From assembly GCF_001298525.1 (NCBI RefSeq), contig NZ_CP012678.1, positions 1,860,001 through 1,924,000 on the forward strand: a stretch of DNA of 64,000 nucleotides, written 5' to 3'. Positions 2,169-58,704 of this stretch are shown in pieces; position 1 is the stretch's first letter; each line of letters opens with the position of its first letter. Source of the stretch: Psychrobacter urativorans. GTDB taxonomy: Bacteria > Pseudomonadota > Gammaproteobacteria > Pseudomonadales > Moraxellaceae. The notes below the pieces were generated by a model. The model saw nothing but the letters and a program-made list of their open reading frames with translations. It ran no database searches and had not been told where the DNA came from. Both the position numbers and the translations under genes were made by a program.

Positions 2169-2741
2169 CGCGTACTCTCCAGAGAATTATAGGGTCTAGT
2201 CAGCTTTACAATAACAGCACTGCAAAATAACAACAGCCACCCATTACCGTAAGCGATCTATTATGCCAGTTATTCATTCGTGAGCATAACAATGCGCATC
2301 ACTACGAGCTGATTGCTCATGAATAGCTTGGTAAAAAGTGACTAATTAAAGAGCGGCTAACTAAAGGGTGACTCATAAAATAGATATTTATCATCATATA
2401 ATAGCTACAGATAACAGCTATGACAGAAAGTTTGGTATATACCGATATCGTGTGTAAGATTGTTTATACAGATTGAGACAGTGCGGTATAAATAGTCATG
2501 ATAATATCGACTGCCTTTTAATATTAAATTGTCGGTGATATGTGCGCTTATTCGCACTTAGCTTAGACACCTATTATAATAACAATAATGCAAATTAATT
2601 TTATAACTTTATAGATTCACGTTTTTTTAATCTCTATAAATACAAACTGTAATCAACTATTTTTAAGTATCTTCGGTTTAATCGTACAATATTTTAATGG
2701 TACAACAATTTAACATCACAACTTAAAACAACTAGGTGTAT
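2169..2741. other. Intergenic region between divergent nagZ and prc
   Basis: AT-rich, with no convincing ORF or RNA gene. It must hold the promoters of nagZ and prc. A TACAAT -10-like hexamer near 2686 is the best prc candidate, but no good -35 is visible. The prc Shine-Dalgarno is CTAGGTG at 2732-2738. Confidence 0.4.
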
Positions 2742-4976
2742 ATGATGAAAAAACAACCCGCGCAGTGGTTACTCAGTGTGGCGTCAGTGGGCGTCGCTGG
2801 ACTTATTCTTACCCAAAGCTATGGTACTGCGGTGGCGAATACTGAAACCGGCAGCTTTGTCCAAACTCCTGAACAAAAACTGACCACGCGTCAAGTGGCA
2901 GCATTATTAGACCGTAGCCACTATTTAAATCAGCCCTTAGACAGCAAAATGGGCGCTGAGATTCTATCGATGTATATTGATAGTCTTGACCCCAATCACA
3001 CGCTATTTTTACAATCTGACGTTGATGAGTTTAAAAAGAAATATGCCAATGACTTTGGTAATCGTCTGAAACTTGGTGACTTGTCGGCTGGCATTGATGT
3101 TTTTGAACGCTATCGTAAACGCTCGAACGAGTATTTTGCCTTATCAAAAAAATTACTCAAAACCAAGATTAACTTGACCGGAAAAGACACTATTATCCTT
3201 GACCGCGAAAAACTGGGACATTTTAAAACCAAAAAAGAACAGCAAGACTACTGGACACGTCAGTTAAAGTTTCAGCTGATTAGTATTACGTTAGGTCAAG
3301 AAGACGAAAAGGCGAAAGAAAAAGTATTTTTAGACGATCCAGATATCACTCGTGGACAAGATTTGGTGCGTGATGATAAACGTACCCCGAGTGAGATTTT
3401 GCTTAATCGCTTGTCGCGTCAGCAAGAGCAAATGCAGCGTCTTAGTGATGATGAAGTGATGGAAACGGTGTTGAATACTGCCATGCTTACCTACGACCCG
3501 CATAGCAATTATTATGCCCCTGTGCAAGCAAATGAGCTACAGATTCAGTCAAGCTTACAGTTAGAAGGTATCGGGGTTTCTATCCGTCCTGACCGTAAAA
3601 ATCCAGACTATACGCGCATTGCAACTTTAGTAGAAGGTGGACCGGCATCGAAAGGCGGGCAGATTAAGCCGAATGATTTAATCATTAGTATTGCCAAAGA
3701 TGGTAAGAACATGACCGATGTGGTCGGTTGGTCGACGCGTGAAATTGTCGGTCTGATTCGTGGTAAACGTGGTACACCAGTGACGCTCAAAGTACGTCAG
3801 CCTAACGCGCCTGAAGCCAGTGCCCGTACGGTAACGGTGATACGCGATATCATTCAACAGGAAGAATCGGGCGTGACTCAGCGTGTGGTTGAAATTCAGC
3901 GTCCTAACATTGATGCCACGCCTAAGCGTATTGGCGTGCTTGAAATTCCAAGCTTTTATTTAAACTATCGCGCGCGTCGTAATGGCGAAGATTATCGCAG
4001 TGTCAGTATTGATACTGAAAAAGCATTAAAAGAATTAAACAAACAAAATATTGATGGTTTGGTGGTAGATTTACGCAACAATCCAGGTGGCTCGCTCGAT
4101 GAAGTTGCCAAAATGCTCGGTTTGTTTATCAAAAGTGGACCTTTAGTACAAATTCGTGATAACCGTGGCAATGTGCAAGTATTCCGTGATGATGATGGTG
4201 GTAAGCAACTATACGACGGTAAAATGGTCGTACTAACCAACTTAGCGTCCGCTTCGGCAAGTGAGATTTTTGCGGCCGCGATTCAAGATTATGGTCGTGG
4301 ATTGGTGGTCGGTAACACCACTACCGGTAAAGGTTCAGCACAAATTCAACTCGATAATCTAGCACTGGGATCAGCGACATTAACTCAGCGTAAATTCTAT
4401 CGTATCACTGGCGGTAGTACGCAGAATAAAGGCGTCGTTCCTGATGTTGAGCTGGTCAATATATATGATGATGCGACCTTTGGTGAACGTGCACAGAAAA
4501 AAGCGCTGCCTTGGGATACCATTAACACGTCACCGTATAAGCCTGAAGGTAAGTTTAGCGCCAATACCCTAGCGACACTGAATCAACAATCAAAAATTCG
4601 TCAGCAACAAAATCCACAGTTTGCTTATTTAAACGCCATTAACACCATTCGTGATATGGAAGATAGTAAAAAGCCCATTAATCTCGATATCAATAGTCGC
4701 CGTGCCAAGATGCATCTGGTTGAAAAGCGCTCATTAGAGGCTGAGAACCAACGTCTCAAAGCCACTGGTGAACGTCCTTATGCCAACTGGAATACGTATC
4801 AGGCGGCAATGGATGCGAAGTTTGAAGAACGTAGCCAAATGAAAGCGTTGGAACGTCCGCAGTTGCCAGAGGATGAAGCTTATATTAATGAAGCGGCTTA
4901 TCTGATGCTCAGTGCGGATTCAACAGTGACTGTCAGCCCTGAAGAGCAGCTTAAGCTCGCTGCGGCAAAAAAATAA
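2742..4976 (+). CDS. prc: Tail-specific C-terminal processing protease Prc (peptidase S41A)
   Basis: Periplasmic serine protease that trims or degrades proteins from their C-terminus, including envelope and cell-wall enzymes. The order is an export signal (about 1-33, MMKKQPAQW then a hydrophobic stretch), an N-terminal helical region, a PDZ domain (about 265-350) that binds C-termini, the S41 catalytic core, and a long C-terminal region. Ser505, Asp516 and Lys530, numbered from ATG 2742, have the 11 and 25 residue spacing of the Ser/Asp/Lys set of E. coli Prc, in SASASEIF and TTGKGSAQ. A GTG six bases upstream overlaps the Shine-Dalgarno, so ATG 2742 or 2745 is the better start. Length is slightly greater than E. 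coli Prc. The small RNA downstream appears to be a separate unit. Confidence 0.95.
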   Translation: MMKKQPAQWLLSVASVGVAGLILTQSYGTAVANTETGSFVQTPEQKLTTRQVAALLDRSHYLNQPLDSKMGAEILSMYIDSLDPNHTLFLQSDVDEFKKKYANDFGNRLKLGDLSAGIDVFERYRKRSNEYFALSKKLLKTKINLTGKDTIILDREKLGHFKTKKEQQDYWTRQLKFQLISITLGQEDEKAKEKVFLDDPDITRGQDLVRDDKRTPSEILLNRLSRQQEQMQRLSDDEVMETVLNTAMLTYDPHSNYYAPVQANELQIQSSLQLEGIGVSIRPDRKNPDYTRIATLVEGGPASKGGQIKPNDLIISIAKDGKNMTDVVGWSTREIVGLIRGKRGTPVTLKVRQPNAPEASARTVTVIRDIIQQEESGVTQRVVEIQRPNIDATPKRIGVLEIPSFYLNYRARRNGEDYRSVSIDTEKALKELNKQNIDGLVVDLRNNPGGSLDEVAKMLGLFIKSGPLVQIRDNRGNVQVFRDDDGGKQLYDGKMVVLTNLASASASEIFAAAIQDYGRGLVVGNTTTGKGSAQIQLDNLALGSATLTQRKFYRITGGSTQNKGVVPDVELVNIYDDATFGERAQKKALPWDTINTSPYKPEGKFSANTLATLNQQSKIRQQQNPQFAYLNAINTIRDMEDSKKPINLDINSRRAKMHLVEKRSLEAENQRLKATGERPYANWNTYQAAMDAKFEERSQMKALERPQLPEDEAYINEAAYLMLSADSTVTVSPEEQLKLAAAKK

Positions 4977-5002
4977 CAGGCAAATAGCTAGCAAATAGAA
5001 GG

Positions 5003-5020
5003 CGTAAGCATATGCTTACA
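5003..5020. promoter_or_regulatory. GacA-type upstream activating box
   Basis: CGTAAG-CATATG-CTTACA matches the GacA/UvrY box TGTAAG-N6-CTTACA at every defined position except the first. It is centred about 64 bases before the predicted transcription start at 5076, the distance seen for several pseudomonad rsm genes. The match is seen; binding by GacA is inferred. Confidence 0.7.
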
Positions 5021-5040
5021 CGCAATGACGCTACGACCTC

Positions 5041-5076
5041 TTACCAGCCGCCGACGAATCTGCGATGATAGCTTCA
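5041..5076 (+). promoter_or_regulatory. Predicted sigma-70 promoter of the Rsm-like RNA
   Basis: TTACCA (5041-5046), a 17-base spacer and GATGAT (5064-5069) with an extended TG at 5061-5062 fit a sigma-70 promoter, with 4 of 6 bases matching in each hexamer. This predicts a start near 5076, between the GacA-type box and the GGA hairpins. Confidence 0.55.
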
Positions 5077-5291
5077 CTGCACAATTTAATGATACTAGGG
5101 ATTGGTATTTATAAATTGCTTCAGGGATGAACTGCTTATCATGGATGATAAGGCTGGAAGCCTGTTAGTGACAACCGACCTCGGGATTAGGTCAGTTGTT
5201 ACATCAACAAGGATAGTGATACTATTATTATAGTATTGGATAGTGATAGTAATAAAAACCGTGTAACGCTTGCCGTTATACGGTTTTTTTA
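5076..5291 (+). ncRNA. Candidate RsmY/RsmZ/CsrB-type RNA that sequesters CsrA/RsmA
   Basis: A non-coding stretch after prc with seven GGA motifs (5099, 5125, 5143, 5156, 5184, 5211, 5238), five of them in hairpin loops. The hairpins are: ATACT/GGTAT with loop AGGGATT; TTCA/TGAA (5120-5131) with loop GGGA; a perfect 7-bp stem CTTATCA/TGATAAG (5135-5152) with loop TGGA; GGCT/AGCC with loop GGA; and a stem of about 14 bp (5168-5202) with loop CGGGATT. The last two GGA motifs lie in a repeated GGATAGTGAT (5211 and 5238) on either side of a perfect 7-bp AT hairpin. The unit ends in a strong terminator. RNAs of this class titrate the translational repressor CsrA/RsmA and are switched on by GacS/GacA, which fits the box at 5003-5020. 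No CsrA gene lies in the window. Exact 5' end and function are inferred. Confidence 0.75.
5254..5291 (+). terminator. Rho-independent terminator of the Rsm-like RNA
   Basis: AACCGTGTAACG/CGTTATACGGTT, a 12-bp stem with one imperfect pair and a short loop, is followed by seven T. Confidence 0.9.
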
Positions 5292-5390
5292 CGTTTGAGC
5301 AACTATTTTGCTTTGGTTAATAAAATGCGTTTGAGTGAGTACTTTGGTTTATTTTATCTCAATGACCGCCCATAAAAAATGATTGCCCAT

Positions 5391-5426
5391 AAAAAAAGCC
5401 AGTAGACGATGCTACTAGCTTTTTTA
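5391..5426 (-). terminator. Terminator downstream of slyD
   Basis: An AGCCAGTAG/CTACTAGCT hairpin with one mismatch has A and T runs on both sides. It lies about 85 bases beyond the slyD stop on the minus strand and could also stop read-through from the plus strand. Confidence 0.7.
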
Positions 5427-5510
5427 GGTTAAACGACGACACTCTACTCTTATAGTTAGTCGTCTGGTATTTAACACTTACTAACCATCATTTAACGAAT
5501 GGGGATAAAA

Positions 5511-5996
5511 TTAATGCTCAACGCCACCTGCACCATGAACATGACCATGGTTAAGTTCGTCTTCAGTAGCGCCACGTACTTCCTGAATTTCAACCTCAAA
5601 AGTCAGGCGCTTGCCTGCTAACGGATGGTTGGCATCAACGATAACTTCGTCATCAGTCACTTCAGTGACGGTTACTAGCATGACTTGACCGCCTGCTTCT
5701 GACTGAAACTGCATACCCGGTTGGATATCTTCAACGCCTTGGAAGTTGTCGCGTGGTACGTGTTGTACCGCTTGCGCTTGGTATTCGCCGTAACCGTCAG
5801 CAGGTTCAACGACAGCAGTGATGGTTTCGCCAGCTGATCTGCCTTCTAGTTGTTGCTCAAGACCAGGAATGATGTTGCTGTGACCATGCAGATAAGCCAA
5901 TGGCTGACCTTCTGGAGACTGGTCAAGGATATTGCCTTCGTCGTCTTTTAGGGTGTAATTAAATTTGACGGCAGTGTCTTTTGCGATAGTAGTCAT
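5511..5996 (-). CDS. slyD: FKBP-type peptidyl-prolyl isomerase, SlyD-like
   Basis: Cytoplasmic prolyl cis-trans isomerase and chaperone of 161 residues. The N-terminal FKBP half begins with the SlyD pattern (VKFNYTLKDDEGNILDQS; YLHGHSNIIPGLEQQLEG). The inserted chaperone (IF) flap follows at about 65-130, then FKBP closes with NHPLAGKRLTFEVEIQEV. The tail is short and carries four His (NHGHVHG, VEH), a reduced version of the metal-binding tail of E. coli SlyD, so nickel handling may be weaker. It has no signal peptide. It is divergent from the M61 peptidase gene. Confidence 0.9.
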   Translation of the reverse strand: MTTIAKDTAVKFNYTLKDDEGNILDQSPEGQPLAYLHGHSNIIPGLEQQLEGRSAGETITAVVEPADGYGEYQAQAVQHVPRDNFQGVEDIQPGMQFQSEAGGQVMLVTVTEVTDDEVIVDANHPLAGKRLTFEVEIQEVRGATEDELNHGHVHGAGGVEH

Positions 5997-19319: not shown

Positions 19320-20576
19320 ATGTTTCAAGATATCTCGATTAAGGAATTTGACCCAGTACTTGCTGAAGCATTAGCAGCTGAAAGTGTTCGCCAAGAAAAT
19401 CACATTGAGCTGATTGCTTCAGAAAACTACTGCTCACAAGCGGTGATGGAAGCACAAGGTACCGATTTAACCAATAAATACGCTGAAGGTTATCCCGGCA
19501 AGCGTTATTACGGTGGTTGTGAGCACGTTGACGTGGTTGAGCAATTGGCGATTGATCGTGCAAAAGAATTGTTTGGTGCAGAATATGTGAACGTCCAACC
19601 ACATTCTGGTAGCCAAGCCAACTCAGCAGTATTCTTAGCACTTTTAAAAGCTAATGACACTATTCTTGGTATGAGCCTTGATGCGGGTGGTCACTTGACT
19701 CACGGCGCACACATTAACTTTTCAGGCATCAACTACCATGCGGTGCAGTACGGTTTAATCGAAGGCTCTGGTCTGATTGATTATGACCAAGTTGACGCCC
19801 TCGCTCGTGAACATAAACCTAAAATGATTATTGCTGGTTTCTCAGCGTATTCACAAGTGGTCGATTGGCAGCGTTTCCGCGATATCGCGGACGAAGTTGG
19901 CGCTTATCTATTGGTTGATATGGCTCACGTTGCTGGTCTGGTTGCCGCAGGTGTTTACCCAAGCCCAGTACCATTTGCTGACGTGGTTACTACCACTACG
20001 CACAAAACCTTACGCGGTCCACGTTCAGGTATGATTCTAGCTCGTGATGAGAAGCTAGCGAAAAAGCTAAATTCAGCCGTTTTCCCAGGTAATCAGGGCG
20101 GTCCATTAATGCATGTTATCGCTGCCAAAGCGGTATCATTCAAAGAAGCATTAGAAGACAATTTCAAAACCTATCAGCAACAAGTGGTTAAAAACGCGCA
20201 AGCAATGGCGAAAGTAATCATCGACCGTGGCTATGAAATCATCTCTGGCGGCACTGAAAATCATCTCATGCTGATCAGCCTAGTTAAGCAAGAAATGACG
20301 GGTAAAGAAGCGGATAAATGGTTGGGTGATGCGCACATTACGGTCAATAAAAATGCCGTACCAAACGATCCAAAATCTCCATTCGTGACCTCTGGTATCC
20401 GTATCGGTACACCAGCCATTACCACTCGCGGCTTCAATGAAGCGCAAGCAGGTGAGTTGGCAGGTTGGATTTGTGACGTGTTAGACAGCCGTGGCGATGA
20501 AGCCGTGACTGCTGAAGTCCGTGGCAAAGTAGAAGCTATCTGTAAAGAGCTTCCAGTTTATGCTAAAAATCAATAA
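19320..20576 (+). CDS. glyA: Serine hydroxymethyltransferase
   Basis: PLP enzyme interconverting serine and glycine while loading tetrahydrofolate with a one-carbon unit; supplies purine, thymidylate and methionine synthesis. The 418 residues match E. coli GlyA almost exactly in length. The PLP lysine is Lys229 in [14 protein letters not shown]. Other family motifs are [37 protein letters not shown] and [10 protein letters not shown] monocistronic unit is likely, with a terminator directly after the stop. Confidence 0.98.
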
Positions 20577-20620
20577 GCTTTAATTACTGTTTTTAAGCGC
20601 TCTTATTAAGAGTGATATTA

Positions 20621-20657
20621 AAAAAACCGCTTAGCTTATGCTAGGCGGTTTTTTTAT
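20621..20657. terminator. Bidirectional terminator between glyA and gltS
   Basis: AACCGCTTAGC/GCTAGGCGGTT stem with one imperfect pair and a 4-base loop. A and T runs on both sides serve the convergent glyA and gltS. Confidence 0.88.
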
Positions 20658-30732: not shown

Positions 30733-32574
30733 TTGAGCGATGTTTCAAACAAAAATTTATATAAATATGTGAATGAAGATTTAGATAGCGCGTCCAATGA
30801 TAATGTAAACGAAAATTTAGATGAGAATTTGAATAAGCGTTTACATGATCAGGTAGATAAAGGATTGCATAGCACAGTAAGTGAAGACTTAAAAAGTGAA
30901 AATTTAAACGACACTGAAAGCTTGACTCCAGATTTGAGTGAAAAAAAGAAAAAGAAGAAAAAGGCTAAGTTAGAACTTCCTGCCGAATCTAGCGTAGAAA
31001 ACGCAGTCGATGGTGAGGTTAAAGCACCACTTGGCACGTCAAAAGCGGTCGAAACGATGTTTCGTAATGCGTTGCGTACCGAACTTGATTTAATCGCATT
31101 GGCAGCGACCAAAGCCAATATTATGATTTCGATGAATGGCATCATCATTTCGGCATTGATGATTTCAGGCGCATTTATTTTTGTCTCGTCAGTCGCATTC
31201 TTAATTCCAGCCGGCATGTTTATGTTCACTGCTGCTGCCTCTATCTTTTTCGCTATTCTCGCCGCATCTCCCGAAAAAGCACATTATTTCACTGGTTTTT
31301 CAAAATGGCTTAAAGCACTTATTAAGCGTGAAGCGCATTTTCGTGATTTGCATGGTTTCCTTGCGCGTGCCAATCGGTCGTCAGATGGGGAAGTTAACCT
31401 GCTGATTAATAAAGATCGTATGCAATTGACGCGTGAAGAATATTGGGAACGTATGCAGGCGATGATGCGTGACCGCGATGAGACTTATCATGCGATGAGT
31501 GATCAGTTGTATTGGCTCGGTCAAATTGCAGCGCGCAATGGTAAAATGCTCAATATTTCTTATTCTATCTTCCGCTGGGGCATGCTGTTCTCTGTTTTAG
31601 CATCTATTTTCTTAAAAGCATTATTGTTCTTTTATCCTGCGGCAGCCTCAGACGTTCCACCACAATTGGATGCGTCTGGAATGGGCACGTTAGTCGGTGT
31701 GTATGAGCCGTCAGCCGTTCAGCAACTTCCTGACGGTCGGGTGTTAGTAGTTGAGGATGAAGAGCAACGGGCGATGAATATCATGACGGTCGCTCCTGAT
31801 GGCAGCTTGAGTGAAAATGCCGTAGCAAGCTTACAGCTGACGCGTAGCTTTGGGCGTAAGCTGAATGACTTAGAAGGCTTGACTGCTGATGATAAAGGTT
31901 TTATCTATGCAGTGACGTCGCACTCGTCGGATACCAGTGGCAAACGTGATCCCAATCGCGAGCAACTGATACGCTTTCGCGTCAATGGCAACATCGCTGG
32001 GGACATCTCAGACATGAGTACCTTGCGCGAAGAGATTGCCAAGTCACCTGTGATTAACGCCGCGTTTCAGGCGCGCTTGAATACTGGTATTAACATTGAT
32101 GAGCTTGATATCGAGGGTTTAGCTTATGATAATAGCACGCACTCGTTGATGCTTGGTTTGCGTGGACCGATGGCAGGAAAGTCGTCCGTCATTATTCCTA
32201 TCATAAACTCGGATGACATATTTACTAATAAAGCAGCCCCTGTATTTGGTCAACCAATCTTCCTTGATCTAAACGGTGGCGGTATCCGCTCGTTGTACTT
32301 TGATCCTGTTTTAGGTATGTTCGTGATTGCCAACGAGATTAATGATCCGGCGGGCAATAAGGAAGCGCAAATTTGGACATGGACGGGTGATCCGAAAGAT
32401 AAACCTGCAAAAGTAGAAACGCCTGAATTAGCAGCCCTAAAAAATATAGAAGCCGTTGATTCAATCACCGCTAATGGCACTATTAAAATGATATTTATGG
32501 CGGATGAAGGCGATGCGAAAAAAGGCATTCATGCCCGCTATGTGTTGTTAGATTATAAGAAATTTACGCAATAG
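30733..32574 (+). CDS. Membrane protein: DUF5706 (PycTM, Pycsar-effector-like) module fused to DUF3616 propeller
   Basis: 613 residues in four parts. Residues 1-100 are a highly charged, Asn/Asp-rich segment with a KKKKKKK run. Residues 104-300 resemble DUF5706/PycTM: RTELDLIALAATKANIMISM, two membrane helices (about 134-156 and 157-179), a cytosolic section, then the family-like WLGQIAARNGKMLN and a third helix (283-303). Residues 315-610 match DUF3616, a predicted beta-propeller (EPSAVQQLPDGRVLVVEDEE, LNDLEGLT, TSHSS, LGLRGPMAGKS, GGGIRSLYFD). By the helix count the propeller should be periplasmic. TTG at 30733 is the start: AGGTGA lies just before it and no in-frame ATG occurs before codon 109. 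In Pycsar defence such membrane modules respond to cCMP or cUMP made by a neighbouring cyclase, but no cyclase gene is in this window. Domain calls are from memory of family patterns; role unknown. Confidence 0.65.
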   Translation: MSDVSNKNLYKYVNEDLDSASNDNVNENLDENLNKRLHDQVDKGLHSTVSEDLKSENLNDTESLTPDLSEKKKKKKKAKLELPAESSVENAVDGEVKAPLGTSKAVETMFRNALRTELDLIALAATKANIMISMNGIIISALMISGAFIFVSSVAFLIPAGMFMFTAAASIFFAILAASPEKAHYFTGFSKWLKALIKREAHFRDLHGFLARANRSSDGEVNLLINKDRMQLTREEYWERMQAMMRDRDETYHAMSDQLYWLGQIAARNGKMLNISYSIFRWGMLFSVLASIFLKALLFFYPAAASDVPPQLDASGMGTLVGVYEPSAVQQLPDGRVLVVEDEEQRAMNIMTVAPDGSLSENAVASLQLTRSFGRKLNDLEGLTADDKGFIYAVTSHSSDTSGKRDPNREQLIRFRVNGNIAGDISDMSTLREEIAKSPVINAAFQARLNTGINIDELDIEGLAYDNSTHSLMLGLRGPMAGKSSVIIPIINSDDIFTNKAAPVFGQPIFLDLNGGGIRSLYFDPVLGMFVIANEINDPAGNKEAQIWTWTGDPKDKPAKVETPELAALKNIEAVDSITANGTIKMIFMADEGDAKKGIHARYVLLDYKKFTQ

Positions 32575-34934: not shown

Positions 34935-37169
34935 ATGACATTATTAAATAATATAAATAGTAAGCGCAATCTTGCCCACGAAGAAATCGAAGACTCGAAT
35001 CCGAGCAATAATATTGATTTTCAGACCATCATTAGTCGCCGTTTAAACCGTCGCAGCCTATTAAAAGGCGGCACAGGATTAACAGCAGCGGCATTTTTTG
35101 GCACCTTGCCGTTAGTCGGCTGTAATAGCGAGGACAGTAAGCCCAATGGACGTCCGCTGATTAAGAATGATAATACTGCCGCTATACCAGCAACGGGAGA
35201 ATTAAAACGCCCTGAAACGTTAAAGTTCGAAGCAGTTGCCCATTCTAAAGCGGCGGAGATGAGTGTGGCGGCAGGCTATAATGCCGAGATGATATTGCCG
35301 CTTGGTATGCCACTTATTGCAGGTATTGATGACTGGAAAGACAACCGCGAACAGTCTGCTGAGTCCTTTGAATGGCGTATGGGCGATAACCATGATGGCA
35401 TGTGGTTCTTTGGCAAGAACGGTGGCGCTTATGACCCAAAAGCTTCGGATAATGGGCTGCTCGTTATGAATCATGAGTATGTGAATAGCGCTGAGCTAAG
35501 CCCATTTGGCTATCATTTAATCAAAGATAACAATGCTGCGCCTATTTTCCAGAATCGTAGGCTTGCCAGCGATGTACGCCGTGAGGTCAATTGTCATGGC
35601 GTTGCGGTGGTTGAAATGAAGCGCCGTGCTGACGGCAAGGGTTATGAGATGGTGCGCAACTCAAAATATCATCGCCGTATTACCAGTAGCACGGTGGCGC
35701 AATTGACAGGTCCGGTTGCTGGCTCTGATTGGGTCAAAACCAAATTTGATCCGACTGGCTTGCAGACTCGCGGTATTAATAATAACTGCGGTGCAGGGCT
35801 GTCACCTTGGGGCACTTATTTGACCACAGAGGAGAACTTCTTAGGCGTATTTGCTCGTGGTCAGGATGCTAGCCAACTGACAGCGGGGCATCATTATGGG
35901 CGGGAGCGTTATGGGGCAAAAGAGGATTTCCCCGGTTGGGAGTATTTATGGCATACGCCCGAAGCTAAAGACGCCAAAATAGCGGATGAATTTTCCCGTT
36001 GGGACATGACTGCGGTTGGGGTCACGGCAGCGGATGACTATCGCAATGGCTTTAATACCTTTGGCTATATCACCGAGATTGACCCGTTTGACCCGCAGTC
36101 TATCCCACAAAAGCGCACTGCATTGGGGCGTTTTGCTCATGAAAACTGCGCCTATGCGCCCGTTGAACAGGGCAAGCCGATTGTTTTTTACATGGGTGAT
36201 GATGCGAGGGGTGAGTATATTTATAAATTTGTCTCCAAAGCCACGTGGTCAAATAATGATATTGGTGGCGGTCTAAAAGCCGGTAGCAAATATATGGACG
36301 ACGGCACCTTATACGTTGCGGTATTTAATGACGATGGTCGCGGTGAATGGAAAGCTCTGATACATGGGCAAAGCGGACTGGATACTTCTAATAGCGAATT
36401 GCCTTTTCATGGACAAGATGAAGTCTTAATCTTTGCTCGTGCAGCGGCTGATGTATTGGGTGCAACCAAAATGGATCGCCCTGAATGGGTGTCCGTTAGC
36501 CCGATTACTGGCGAGGTTTATGTAACATTGACCAATAATAAATATCGTGGTGTCAGTGCTGACCAACCAGTATCGGCAACCAACCCGCGCAGCTATAACG
36601 TACGCGGCAAAGCAGGCGGCAATGACAACGGTCATATTATTCGCTGGGCAGAAACGGGCGGCGACCATACAGCCACAAGCTTTGAATGGGATGTCTATCT
36701 GTTTGCTGCGCCTTATGATTTAGCCACTGAAAACCTCTCAAAACTGAATAACAATAATGACTTTTCGTCCCCAGACGGCTTATATTTTGACCCACGCGGC
36801 GTGCTATGGATACAAACCGATGATGGCGCGTATACTGATACCAGCAGCTGTATGTTGCTTGCTGCGCTACCGGGTAAGGTGAGTGACGGGGCGCTGACCA
36901 TCACCACTGCAGGGCAACAAACTCGCGTCGGTATGCCGGCTAATAATGACAATATTAAGCGCTTCTTTGTTGGTCCTGAGGGCTGTGAGGTGACAGGCAT
37001 CACCCTTACCCCCGACTTTAAGACGCTGTTTATTAATATTCAACATCCGGGTAATCAATGGGGCGCGGTTGCAGGCGGTAAAATCCCACGTTCAGCCACG
37101 GTGATGATTACTAAAGAAGATGGTGATGTGATATTGGCGGAATCCTTTGCACCATCAAATAGCGGCTAA
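34935..37169 (+). CDS. PhoX-family phosphatase (DUF839), Tat-exported
   Basis: 744 residues. The N-terminus has a twin-arginine signal (NRRSLLKGGTGLTAAAFFG, about 37-55) after a 35-residue leader, so it is exported folded. The rest is the PhoX/DUF839 beta-propeller: MWFFGKNGGAYDPKASDNG, LLVMNHEYVN, VNCHGVAVVEM, NNCGAGLSPWGTYLTTEENF, RFAHENCAYAP, YKFVSKATW, MDRPEWVSVSPITGEVYVTLTNN and PDGLYFDPRGVLWIQTDDG. Members are Ca/Fe alkaline phosphatases that release phosphate from organic esters. It is flanked by near-identical terminators at 34700 and 37259, so it is its own unit. Confidence 0.92.
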   Translation: MTLLNNINSKRNLAHEEIEDSNPSNNIDFQTIISRRLNRRSLLKGGTGLTAAAFFGTLPLVGCNSEDSKPNGRPLIKNDNTAAIPATGELKRPETLKFEAVAHSKAAEMSVAAGYNAEMILPLGMPLIAGIDDWKDNREQSAESFEWRMGDNHDGMWFFGKNGGAYDPKASDNGLLVMNHEYVNSAELSPFGYHLIKDNNAAPIFQNRRLASDVRREVNCHGVAVVEMKRRADGKGYEMVRNSKYHRRITSSTVAQLTGPVAGSDWVKTKFDPTGLQTRGINNNCGAGLSPWGTYLTTEENFLGVFARGQDASQLTAGHHYGRERYGAKEDFPGWEYLWHTPEAKDAKIADEFSRWDMTAVGVTAADDYRNGFNTFGYITEIDPFDPQSIPQKRTALGRFAHENCAYAPVEQGKPIVFYMGDDARGEYIYKFVSKATWSNNDIGGGLKAGSKYMDDGTLYVAVFNDDGRGEWKALIHGQSGLDTSNSELPFHGQDEVLIFARAAADVLGATKMDRPEWVSVSPITGEVYVTLTNNKYRGVSADQPVSATNPRSYNVRGKAGGNDNGHIIRWAETGGDHTATSFEWDVYLFAAPYDLATENLSKLNNNNDFSSPDGLYFDPRGVLWIQTDDGAYTDTSSCMLLAALPGKVSDGALTITTAGQQTRVGMPANNDNIKRFFVGPEGCEVTGITLTPDFKTLFINIQHPGNQWGAVAGGKIPRSATVMITKEDGDVILAESFAPSNSG

Positions 37170-54349: not shown

Positions 54350-56497
<2,148 letters not shown>

Positions 56498-56499
56498 TG

Positions 56500-58704
56500 A
56501 TGGATATTGATGACTTGAAAGATTTGGATAAAGAGATTCGGAAAGAGATTGAAGGTTTGCAGAGGGTTACGCGTGAACAATATGGCGGAAAAAAATTTGC
56601 GCAAACTCAATATATTATAGGTAAAACTCTACTTCTGAATGGAGAGATTGGGGAAGCCATTAATACGTTGGAAAATATACAAAGATTAGATGATTCAGTA
56701 TGTTACGTATTAGCTCAAATGCATATTGGTGAAATTCTATATAATAAAAATGACTTTGATGGGGCACAACAATCTTGGTCGAAAATTCAAAAAGAGGATA
56801 GTCTGAAACTTTATGGAATTTTTCAAACAAAGATCAGTGATATTCTAGTCAGGAAAAATAAAACTAATGATGCACTATTAGTTTTAAAAAATATTTTAGA
56901 ACTAGATGACATAGAAAACTGTTCGAGAGCGCAACTAAAGATTGGTTATATCTTAAAAGATACAGGAAATTATGAAGAAGCAGTATCATATTGGTCAAAA
57001 ATTAAAAAAAAGGACAATGCTATATACTATGTGCTATCTCAGTTAGAGATAGGAGAAATTTTAAGAGTTGAAGGTGAGCTAGATAAAGCGTTAAATATCT
57101 TTCGAGAAATTTATAAAAGTTCATCTGAAAATCTTGAAAGTTTAGTTAGGTTTAGAATTGGTCAGGTGTATATAGAAAAAGGAGACACTAGGGAGGCTTC
57201 AAAATTTTTGGAAGATATTGAACGGTCGCAAGACTTATATGTTTACGCAATGGCTAAGATTGAAATTGGAAAAATTCTAAAAGAAAGCGGTAATATTGAT
57301 GGAGCTTTAGACGCTTGGTATGATTTCAAAAAGGAAGATAACAATAAAGCTTATTCAGTAGCTAGATTACTAATTGGTGATGCACTTGTTGAAAAAAATT
57401 CTATAGACGAAGCTTTAGAAGCTTGGCGTAGTATAGATCAAGTAGATAGTTTAGCTGAATATATGAAGTGCCAAATGAAAATTGGCACAACTCTCATAGA
57501 CAATGAAGAAAAAAATGAAATCATGAAGGCTAAAAGTGCTTTTGAAGTAGCAAGTGAGTATTATCCTTATGAATCCTCTCGTTATATCAAAATTTGCAAT
57601 TTACTTGTAAATGATAAAGAGGGTGTTGGACGTTTTTTGCTAAAACTACTAAGACAGACAATAGAAACTATTGATTTACTCACACTAGATTTTAATAACA
57701 GCATGAATGTTTCAAAATATCCTGAACGTAAACTTGCCCATTATACGAGTACGTTTACAATGGATAAGTTACTAAACATTGAAAACGAAAAGGGAAAAGC
57801 TAGTTCTTTTCGTCTCAATACAGTAAGTAATTTTAATGATCCTAGTGAAGGGCATTTACTGAATAGCTATTTGAATGATATCAAAGAAGGTAAGTTTTAT
57901 GCACCAGATTTCGACAAAAAATTTCATGCGTTCGTCAGCTGCTTTACCTTCAATCATGATAGCCTCAATCAATTTAGGTTGTACGGCAAGGAAAACAATA
58001 AAGAAGCCTCCGGTGTTAGCTTTGTCTTTAAAAAAGAATTTTTTCAATCGAAAAGCTTATTAGGGGGGATATCCTTGTTATCTCCTACTACTAATATTCA
58101 AACACCGAATGGTGGTTTTGAAATTATTGAAGATAATCAGAGTCATATTGATTTTAAAAACATGCATGTTGATAGGTATCCAGTAATACGATGTATATAC
58201 ATTGAGCCTGTATCAGAGTACGTACAATTAGCCCAACGCAACCAACTAACTTTCTATCGAGAGTTTGAAGCTGAAGAAAATCCTGAAGAGAAATGGAAGA
58301 TATATGAAAAGATGATTGATGATAAAACTAAAAAAGTTGTCGAATCTTTAAAGACACTACGGACTACTTATAGAACAATAAAAGACAAATATTCTGGTAG
58401 TTTCGAAACAAACTCGATTTTAATTGATGAGATTCTTTTACCATTAAAATATCTTATAAAGCACTCTGCTTTTCAAGAAGAGCAAGAATGTCGTATGATT
58501 CATATTACTTCTCTTAAAGACCCTAAAGTAAAAATGGATTTTGGTAAGTTTTTATATGTTGAATATGAAGCCAACGTCAAAGCTCATCTTGATAAAATAT
58601 ACATTGCACCAGCTGCTACTCAGTATCAACCTTATTTAGCTAAACTGCTTTGCAATACTGACGTAAAAATCGAGCTTTCAAACAATCCTTATCGCCAAAC
58701 TTAA
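56500..58704 (+). CDS. TPR-repeat protein with C-terminal DUF2971 domain, AT-rich
   Basis: About 734 residues. Residues 30-370 are degenerate tetratricopeptide-like helical repeats of about 36 residues, each with an A-x-I/K-I-G-x-I pattern and a W or L before SKI. From about 410 comes a DUF2971-like domain: HYTS (414-417), NTVSNFNDPSEG (Asn446-Glu450), FVSCFTFNHDSLNQFRLYGK, SGVSFVF and a closing QEEQECRM. The gene is markedly more AT-rich than ligA. A GTG at 56494 and ATG at 56497 are possible starts, but the GGGGAGGAG at the ligA end best serves ATG 56500, two bases after the ligA stop. DUF2971 proteins occur in mobile and defence contexts; their activity is not settled. Probably acquired. 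Confidence 0.75.
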   Translation: MDIDDLKDLDKEIRKEIEGLQRVTREQYGGKKFAQTQYIIGKTLLLNGEIGEAINTLENIQRLDDSVCYVLAQMHIGEILYNKNDFDGAQQSWSKIQKEDSLKLYGIFQTKISDILVRKNKTNDALLVLKNILELDDIENCSRAQLKIGYILKDTGNYEEAVSYWSKIKKKDNAIYYVLSQLEIGEILRVEGELDKALNIFREIYKSSSENLESLVRFRIGQVYIEKGDTREASKFLEDIERSQDLYVYAMAKIEIGKILKESGNIDGALDAWYDFKKEDNNKAYSVARLLIGDALVEKNSIDEALEAWRSIDQVDSLAEYMKCQMKIGTTLIDNEEKNEIMKAKSAFEVASEYYPYESSRYIKICNLLVNDKEGVGRFLLKLLRQTIETIDLLTLDFNNSMNVSKYPERKLAHYTSTFTMDKLLNIENEKGKASSFRLNTVSNFNDPSEGHLLNSYLNDIKEGKFYAPDFDKKFHAFVSCFTFNHDSLNQFRLYGKENNKEASGVSFVFKKEFFQSKSLLGGISLLSPTTNIQTPNGGFEIIEDNQSHIDFKNMHVDRYPVIRCIYIEPVSEYVQLAQRNQLTFYREFEAEENPEEKWKIYEKMIDDKTKKVVESLKTLRTTYRTIKDKYSGSFETNSILIDEILLPLKYLIKHSAFQEEQECRMIHITSLKDPKVKMDFGKFLYVEYEANVKAHLDKIYIAPAATQYQPYLAKLLCNTDVKIELSNNPYRQT

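Follow-up and report, generated by a model that had tools for sequence, protein, structure and literature searches.

A probable GacA-activated, CsrA-sequestering small RNA gene downstream of prc in Psychrobacter urativorans

Introduction

The gap between prc and a slyD-like gene in the chromosome of Psychrobacter urativorans raises the question of whether it holds a regulatory RNA gene and, if so, of which kind. A sequence-only reading of positions 5003-5291 of the window (the whole 64-kb stretch of DNA that was analysed, G000:C1:1860001-1924000) had proposed an Rsm/Csr-type RNA at this place. In CsrB and CsrC, two RNAs of this class, many GGA hairpins titrate CsrA under the control of BarA/UvrY. 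The two E. coli RNAs are named together with the BarA/UvrY system in a published study (PMC8639471, excerpt).

It had also been supposed that no such RNA was described for Psychrobacter or its relatives. For Psychrobacter the statement stands, as none was described among the best-ranked literature matches, a scope outside which most subscription papers fall. The study of Kulkarni from 2006 may have covered the genus. For the relatives, however, the statement does not hold. GGA-bearing small RNAs regulating RsmA were predicted computationally in Acinetobacter ADP1 (PMC5568370, excerpt), a member of the same family, Moraxellaceae, but not of Psychrobacter, at the sites ACIAD0018/0019 and ACIAD2750/2751. 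For A. baumannii, RsmX/Y/Z appear in brackets in a table from 2020 which cites Kulkarni 2006 (PMC7366521, excerpt).

Results

The locus and its promoter region

The upstream neighbour is prc (2736-4976, + strand), the gene of a C-terminal processing (tail-specific) protease (TIGR00225, 256.6 bits against a cut-off of 218.6), whose product shares up to 92% identity with named Psychrobacter proteins, the top match being that of P. frigidicola. The convergent downstream neighbour is a gene of a slyD-like FKBP peptidyl-prolyl isomerase (5511-5996, - strand), for which the best match, PRK10737, reached 157 bits, below the cut-off of 174. No open reading frame of 80 aa or more overlapped positions 5003-5291, and no stop-to-stop frame of more than 44 codons was found inside them on the + strand.

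The stop codon of prc lies 26 nt ahead of the palindrome CGTAAGCATATGCTTACA (CGTAAG-N6-CTTACA, 5003-5020, + strand), which fits the published GacA site consensus TGTAAG-N6-CTTACA (PMC4950607, excerpt). The strict form of this box, YGTAAGN6CTTACR, occurs at two sites in the 2.93-Mb genome, against none for the reversed control pattern, and both sites stand ahead of an RNA with GGA hairpins and a terminator. The RNA at the present locus is referred to below as copy A, and the one behind the other strict box as copy B. The GacA-type box that had been proposed upstream of the RNA is therefore found, in promoter position and at a site that is rare in the genome. Downstream of it, a -35-like TTACCA (5041-5046, + strand) and a -10-like GATGAT (5064-5069, + strand) are separated by a spacer of 17 nt. 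The latter reads GATTAT in most of the aligned relatives (best 30 of 99), and the equivalent elements of copy B are TTAACA-17-CATTAT, with the same arrangement of box, -35, spacer and -10 in both copies. These elements had been described as a good sigma-70 promoter. TTACCA-17-GATGAT is indeed present, but "good" is too strong a word, because it matches 8 of the 12 consensus bases and was not reported by a promoter scan with a threshold of nine matches. Such a weak promoter would fit one that depends on an activator.

With its 5' end predicted from the -10 element, copy A runs over positions 5076-5291 (+ strand, about 216 nt), in the same direction as prc, an assignment based on the fold, the covariance model R1 and covariation. 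The end of the box is 55 nt away from this 216-nt unit, and relative to the predicted start the box covers about -73 to -56.

GGA sites, hairpins and terminator of copy A

All seven GGA motifs that had been claimed were located within 5076-5291, at 5099, 5125, 5143, 5156, 5184, 5211 and 5238. In the minimum-energy fold four of them occupy hairpin loops, on uninterrupted stems of 7, 7, 5 and 12 bp. The earlier figure of five GGAs in hairpin loops is a fair count, because the GGA at 5156 is 75-93% unpaired and lies in a hairpin loop of the consensus structure of 30 sequences (best 30 of 99). The unpaired probability was high for the GGAs at 5099, 5125, 5143, 5156 and 5184, and mixed for those at 5211 and 5238.

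All elements of the RNA lie on the + strand. Hairpin 1 (5091-5109) exposes the loop GGGAT, and its core ACTAGGGATTGG is identical in 30/30 sequences, while the second GGA (5125-5127, within CAGGGAT) is mostly single-stranded and equally present in 30/30 (both best 30 of 99). Hairpin 2 (CTTATCATGGATGATAAG, 5135-5152, loop TGGA) retains its GGA at 5143 in 30/30 sequences of the best 30 of 99; it folds strongly in this genome and is absent from the consensus structure of the same 30, of which two have the local 7-pair stem and the others 3-4 pairs, as counted without a control. By two bases it overlaps hairpin 3 (AGGCTGGAAGCCT, 5151-5163), which was taken from the consensus and has its GGA in 26/30 sequences (best 30 of 99). 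Hairpin 4 (5168-5202) is a long covarying stem with CGGGATT in its loop; the GGA was found in 30/30 sequences and double changes at 9 of the 11 pairs (best 30 of 99). The sixth GGA belongs to ACAAGGATAG (5207-5216), which is conserved in 30/30 (best 30 of 99) and partly paired in this genome. A 29-nt insertion (5218-5246), which brings an extra hairpin and the seventh GGA, at 5238, is present in this genome alone (1/30, best 30 of 99). The strong terminator that had been claimed was likewise found: the intrinsic terminator (5254-5291) consists of a 15-pair hairpin at 5254-5288 followed by a T-rich tail, and has 13 consensus pairs, six of them with double changes (best 30 of 99).

The strand of copy A folds at -65.1 kcal/mol (z -4.73), an energy matched by none of 500 dinucleotide shuffles; the four loop GGAs were also reached by 0/500 (mean 0.49). 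The number of GGAs is by itself not decisive, since seven were reached by 36/500 dinucleotide shuffles and the window contains, on both strands, four stretches with seven GGAs per 216 nt, copy A included. The other stretches with at least seven lie at 35789-36079 (+), 56327-56717 (+) and 32178-32400 (-).

Conservation and distribution in Psychrobacter

The copy A alignment (A1) comprised the best 30 of 99 genomes with DNA matches, two of its rows (L003 and L004) having been trimmed by hand ahead of the T tail. Five GGA sites were identical in 30/30 sequences, one in 26/30 and that at 5238 in 1/30 (best 30 of 99). The conservation sum of the GGA sites was reached by 15 of 20,000 draws of random triplets (best 30 of 99). 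AGG triplets, which belong to the same GGGA/AGGA sites, were conserved as well, and therefore the conservation of GGA is not independent of its context. The GGA loops and the box, whose fate in relatives had been put forward as a check on the proposal, are both kept while the rest of the sequence drifts, the mean triplet identity being 0.84 for the GGA sites and 0.39 for the rest (best 30 of 99). In the consensus structure 98.8% of cells were paired, and double changes occurred at 19 of the 39 consensus pairs (best 30 of 99). On each of the five measures this covariation exceeded that of 500/500 shuffles, and it was also above that of all six slid controls. Moreover, prc and slyD flanked copy A in 30/30 loci as judged by tblastn (best 30 of 99).

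A genus-wide DNA search detected the copy A region in 99/105 genomes, some of the matches consisting of the box only, and missed it in 6/105. The model R1, built from 30 sequences whose genomes are included in the count, gave copy A at least 73 bits in 87/105 genus genomes; the remaining 18/105 scored below 73 bits or had no match. The copy of this genome, itself one of the 30 sequences of R1, scored 172.6 bits. Among the prc loci of named Psychrobacter, R1 detected copy A downstream of the gene in 68 of 73; of these 73, L213 stops inside prc, where copy A could not be seen. Outside the genus, one of 194 genomes (G209, E 2.9e-5) had a match at E 1e-4. The box itself was present at least once in 105/105 genus genomes, namely once in 4, twice in 22 and three or more times in 79, which gave 308 sites against 20 reversed control sites distributed over 16 genomes. 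The values 87/105, 308, 20 and 79/105, and the 35/291 given below, are hand counts from listings. Within the window, an R1 match at 20508-20656 (21.9 bits) was rejected as an apparent coding end with a terminator; it has no GGA hairpins, and R1 scores below about 25 bits were therefore taken as noise. Further weak matches lay at 20619, 39870, 60231 and 18966.

Covarying arms lengthen the copy A box to a palindrome of 28-36 bp in 18 of the 43 distinct Psychrobacter loci compared (for example at L157 3765, L173 3756 and L197 3756); each of these 18 has at least five extra arm pairs, and they represent 11 arm strings, or nine once nested ones are merged. Over the 43 loci the mean was 3.56 extra pairs against 1.22 after re-dealing, and 0/5000 re-dealt sets reached it, whereas the box of copy B had 0.58 extra pairs against 0.27, a value reached in 109/2000. 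The box at 5003-5020 of this genome is without extended arms. The arms could be explained by a 3'-terminal hairpin of the prc mRNA or by palindrome-correcting mutation (template-switch correction).

Copies B and C

Copy B, with its box at G000:C1:1685959, is an RNA of 280 nt (L034:2533-2812) with eight GGAs and a terminator, and contains CTCAAGGATTGAG, ATCAGGATGAT and GGGCAGGATGCC. Its fold had a z of -2.31, 3/200 shuffles being as good, and R1 scored it at 30.7 bits. The copy B region was found by DNA search in 102/105 genus genomes. In alignment A2, made from the best 30 of these 102 genomes with matches after a spurious extra row had been dropped, the conservation sum of the GGA triplets was reached by 10 of 20,000 random draws, and the consensus structure had 79 pairs, 13 of them with double changes. 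The upstream neighbour of copy B is divergent. A neighbouring gene, which we take to be csbD-like and whose NCBIfam match is an unnamed family below the cut-off, was present in 29 of 30 loci (best 30 of 102), the flank count having used 31 rows for the 30 loci, with one spurious row from L083.

The idea that the extra Psychrobacter boxes stand before plain terminators was dropped, since L052 and L124 showed a GGA RNA. The third-box sites that were read comprised these two loci of relatives, each with a third RNA possessing a box, GGA hairpins and a terminator (copy C), and L144 of this genome. Here copy C lies at about 1320-1560 of L144 (region of G000:C1:2477712), with a mismatch in the box and the loss of one loop GGA. 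In this genome, copy C seems to be undergoing decay, which makes two copies, A and B, the ones likely to be active. Boxes also cluster in four further loci (L117, L118, L119 and L120), each of which has two or three of them a few kb apart at most, adjoining the csbD-like gene. A span of 4 kb in L120 (G047) takes in three boxes as well as prc and the csbD-like gene. This proximity hints that copies A and B may have descended from one cluster.

Partner proteins and the wider family

A genome without CsrA had been named as an argument against the proposed RNA; csrA was found, as one gene of 81 aa above the NCBIfam cut-off, with 52/59 residues identical to E. coli CsrA. The GacA candidate (211 aa) combines a receiver and a LuxR-type domain and is identical to UvrY at 93/209 residues (44%; E 1.8e-57, next match 1.5e-12); its best NCBIfam model is GacA/UvrY, with 241 bits against an equivalog cut-off of 280. 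The candidate for a GacS/BarA-like kinase is encoded by a 1254-aa open frame; it has HisKA, HATPase_c and receiver domains and matched BarA at E 1.7e-69 (next match 2.0e-38). Its best NCBIfam model, BarA, gave 460 bits, below the equivalog cut-off of 890, with 1116 of the 1254 residues scanned. The sensor domains of Moraxellaceae BarA/GacS form a separate branch (PMC8639471, excerpt), which could explain the weak scores.

CsrA was found in 291/299 genomes of the family and in 273/274 of the better ones (at least 90% completeness, at most 5% contamination, n=274). The sole better genome with no CsrA match, G151 (genus g10, 2.0 Mb, 100% complete), has no strict box either. The coupling of box and CsrA in the family is loose: the strict box is missing from 35/291 genomes with CsrA, and of the eight genomes without a CsrA match six lack the box and two incomplete ones (G167 and G194) have it. 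In genus g15, which is probably Acinetobacter, the control pattern is sometimes commoner than the box (G254, 0 boxes and 12 controls; G170, 3 and 10), and therefore the strict box alone is no proof of a small RNA in other genera.

Six or more GGAs stood behind the box in 13/30 g15 loci, against 313/3000 positions drawn at random from these loci, and in 13/19 of the loci L125-L143, against 352/1900 random positions. The latter come from 19 genomes chosen for having boxes, one of which (G118) belongs to g15. The enrichment in other genera is about four times the random rate, with the best of both strands taken for each window and with random positions that may fall on the RNAs themselves. An Rfam scan of 13 g15 loci and 16 of L125-L143 returned no sponge family, the matches being tRNAs and a group II intron, the latter near the box RNA of L133 (625-847, - strand; RF02005, 182.9 bits). 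Some other Moraxellaceae thus have GGA-rich RNAs, mostly unlike in sequence, behind a GacA box. "Unlike" is not absolute here, since the RNA of L129 (genus g7) scored 30.1 bits with R1. A GGA-rich stretch with a terminator-like end behind a GacA box, with no match to the Rfam sponge families, was also seen in L088, L093, L107, L116, L126, L129, L135 and L139.

Comparison with Rfam

The sponge families compared were RsmY, RsmZ/PrrB, CsrB, CsrC and RsmX. Copy A matched no Rfam family at the gathering score and no sponge family even at E 10, so that the comparison with the RsmY, RsmZ/PrrB and CsrB models, to which the sequence-only reading had looked for a check, yielded no match. Weak similarities, such as those to the trpB motif, Thr_leader, MicC and others, were discarded; they were far below gathering and several of them lay over the terminator. 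Copy B scored 14.9 bits with RsmY, whose gathering score is 57 (E 0.28).

Discussion

The box, the conserved GGA sites, the covariation and the presence of csrA support the proposed reading as an Rsm/Csr-type regulatory RNA. Very probably, positions 5076-5291 encode an RsmX/Y/Z-CsrB-type small RNA that is activated by GacA, sequesters CsrA and has at least one counterpart in this genome. CsrB has about twice as many GGA sites as copies A and B, which have fewer (seven and eight) and differ from CsrB/CsrC also in the lack of an Rfam match to these families; the likeness lies in the function presumed by analogy, the titration of CsrA. Like RsmX, RsmY and RsmZ of Pseudomonas, copy A has its start preceded by a GacA box of matching consensus and is one of several copies in its genome. 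In P. aeruginosa the GacA site of rsmY is at -75 (PMC4950607, excerpt), and the Rsm RNAs of P. brassicacearum carry between six and ten GGA motifs, of which some are exposed (PMC7911923, excerpt). Copies A and B differ from these RNAs in length (216 and 280 nt) and in location, between prc and slyD and beside the csbD-like gene, respectively. The best reading of these comparisons is that copy A would work like the RsmX/Y/Z-CsrB RNAs, yet stands outside their Rfam sequence families.

The first alternative to be weighed concerns the origin of the 5' end. For the most part the RNA could represent the 3' portion of the prc transcript, produced by read-through to 5254-5291 and then cut out, as is suggested for RsmW of P. 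aeruginosa, which may arise from the 3' UTR of PA4570 (PMC4950607, excerpt) and, like copy A, has seven GGA motifs and stands behind a gene. Such an RNA would still bind CsrA, but it would report the transcription of prc and not the activity of GacA. The upstream position and common direction of prc are consistent with this, as are the neighbourhood of prc, kept in 30/30 loci (best 30 of 99), and the absence of a + strand terminator before 5254 in a scan of 4900-5520. The box, moreover, would fall within the 3' UTR of prc, and in many relatives it has extended, covarying palindromic arms. However, a pure 3' UTR RNA has no need of a box, and the box of copy A comes with its own -35/-10 spacing, common to copy B, whose upstream neighbour diverges. 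The GacA site of RsmW is also weak and about 830 bp off, whereas for copy A a strict box stands in promoter position. An origin mainly from the prc mRNA is therefore improbable, although it differs from the GacA-activated gene in the source of the 5' end and not in CsrA binding, so that both could hold.

A base-pairing, trans-acting sRNA of the Hfq type, with GGA loops by accident, would be compatible with the size, the terminator with its T tail and the conserved single-stranded stretches. What copies A and B have in common, however, is mainly the box, the promoter spacing and the GGA hairpins, and GGA-rich sequence is enriched behind the boxes of other genera, which makes this explanation highly improbable. 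A cis-acting element or attenuator can hardly be credited: the weak similarity to the Rfam trpB motif at 5218-5295 (29.8 bits, E 0.046, cut-off 59) is confined to the private insertion and the terminator, and since slyD (- strand) is convergent, there is no adjacent downstream gene on the same strand to attenuate. That GGAs and hairpins were piled up by chance, as the 36/500 shuffles reaching the GGA count might suggest, is scarcely believable against the conservation, the covariation and the box.

If copy A is the gene of a GacA-activated sponge RNA, as is preferred here, its action may be pictured from the known class and from the proteins encoded in the genome. The GacS/BarA-like kinase would phosphorylate GacA, and GacA-P would bind the palindrome at 5003-5020, which precedes the likely start by about 64 bp, and activate the weak promoter. 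An RNA of roughly 216 nt would then be transcribed up to the terminator at 5254-5291. Its conserved GGA sites would be expected to bind several CsrA dimers, and CsrA titrated off mRNA leaders would alter the translation and stability of its targets. Copy A would presumably act jointly with copy B.

A wider picture may be drawn tentatively, and it is rather unlikely to hold. The GacA-CsrA switch might be used throughout Moraxellaceae by way of fast-diverging sponge RNAs with little in common but the box and the GGA loops. At the same time, the palindrome of copy A in Psychrobacter might have a double role, in DNA as the site for GacA and in RNA, in many species, as an extended, covarying hairpin at the 3' terminus of the prc mRNA. 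Either GacA binding or read-through from prc could in this way couple envelope proteolysis to CsrA titration.

Summarizing, copy A is assigned to a functional class that is well documented in Pseudomonas and E. coli, and the sequence family of copy A is absent from Rfam. Annotation of this genome by way of Rfam would therefore miss two putative global regulators or more. Psychrobacter occurs in cold, marine and food habitats; in this genus copy A is a likely link from GacS/GacA to CsrA, and it offers an example of a class of regulatory RNA in which the sequence turns over while the box and the GGA loops are kept.
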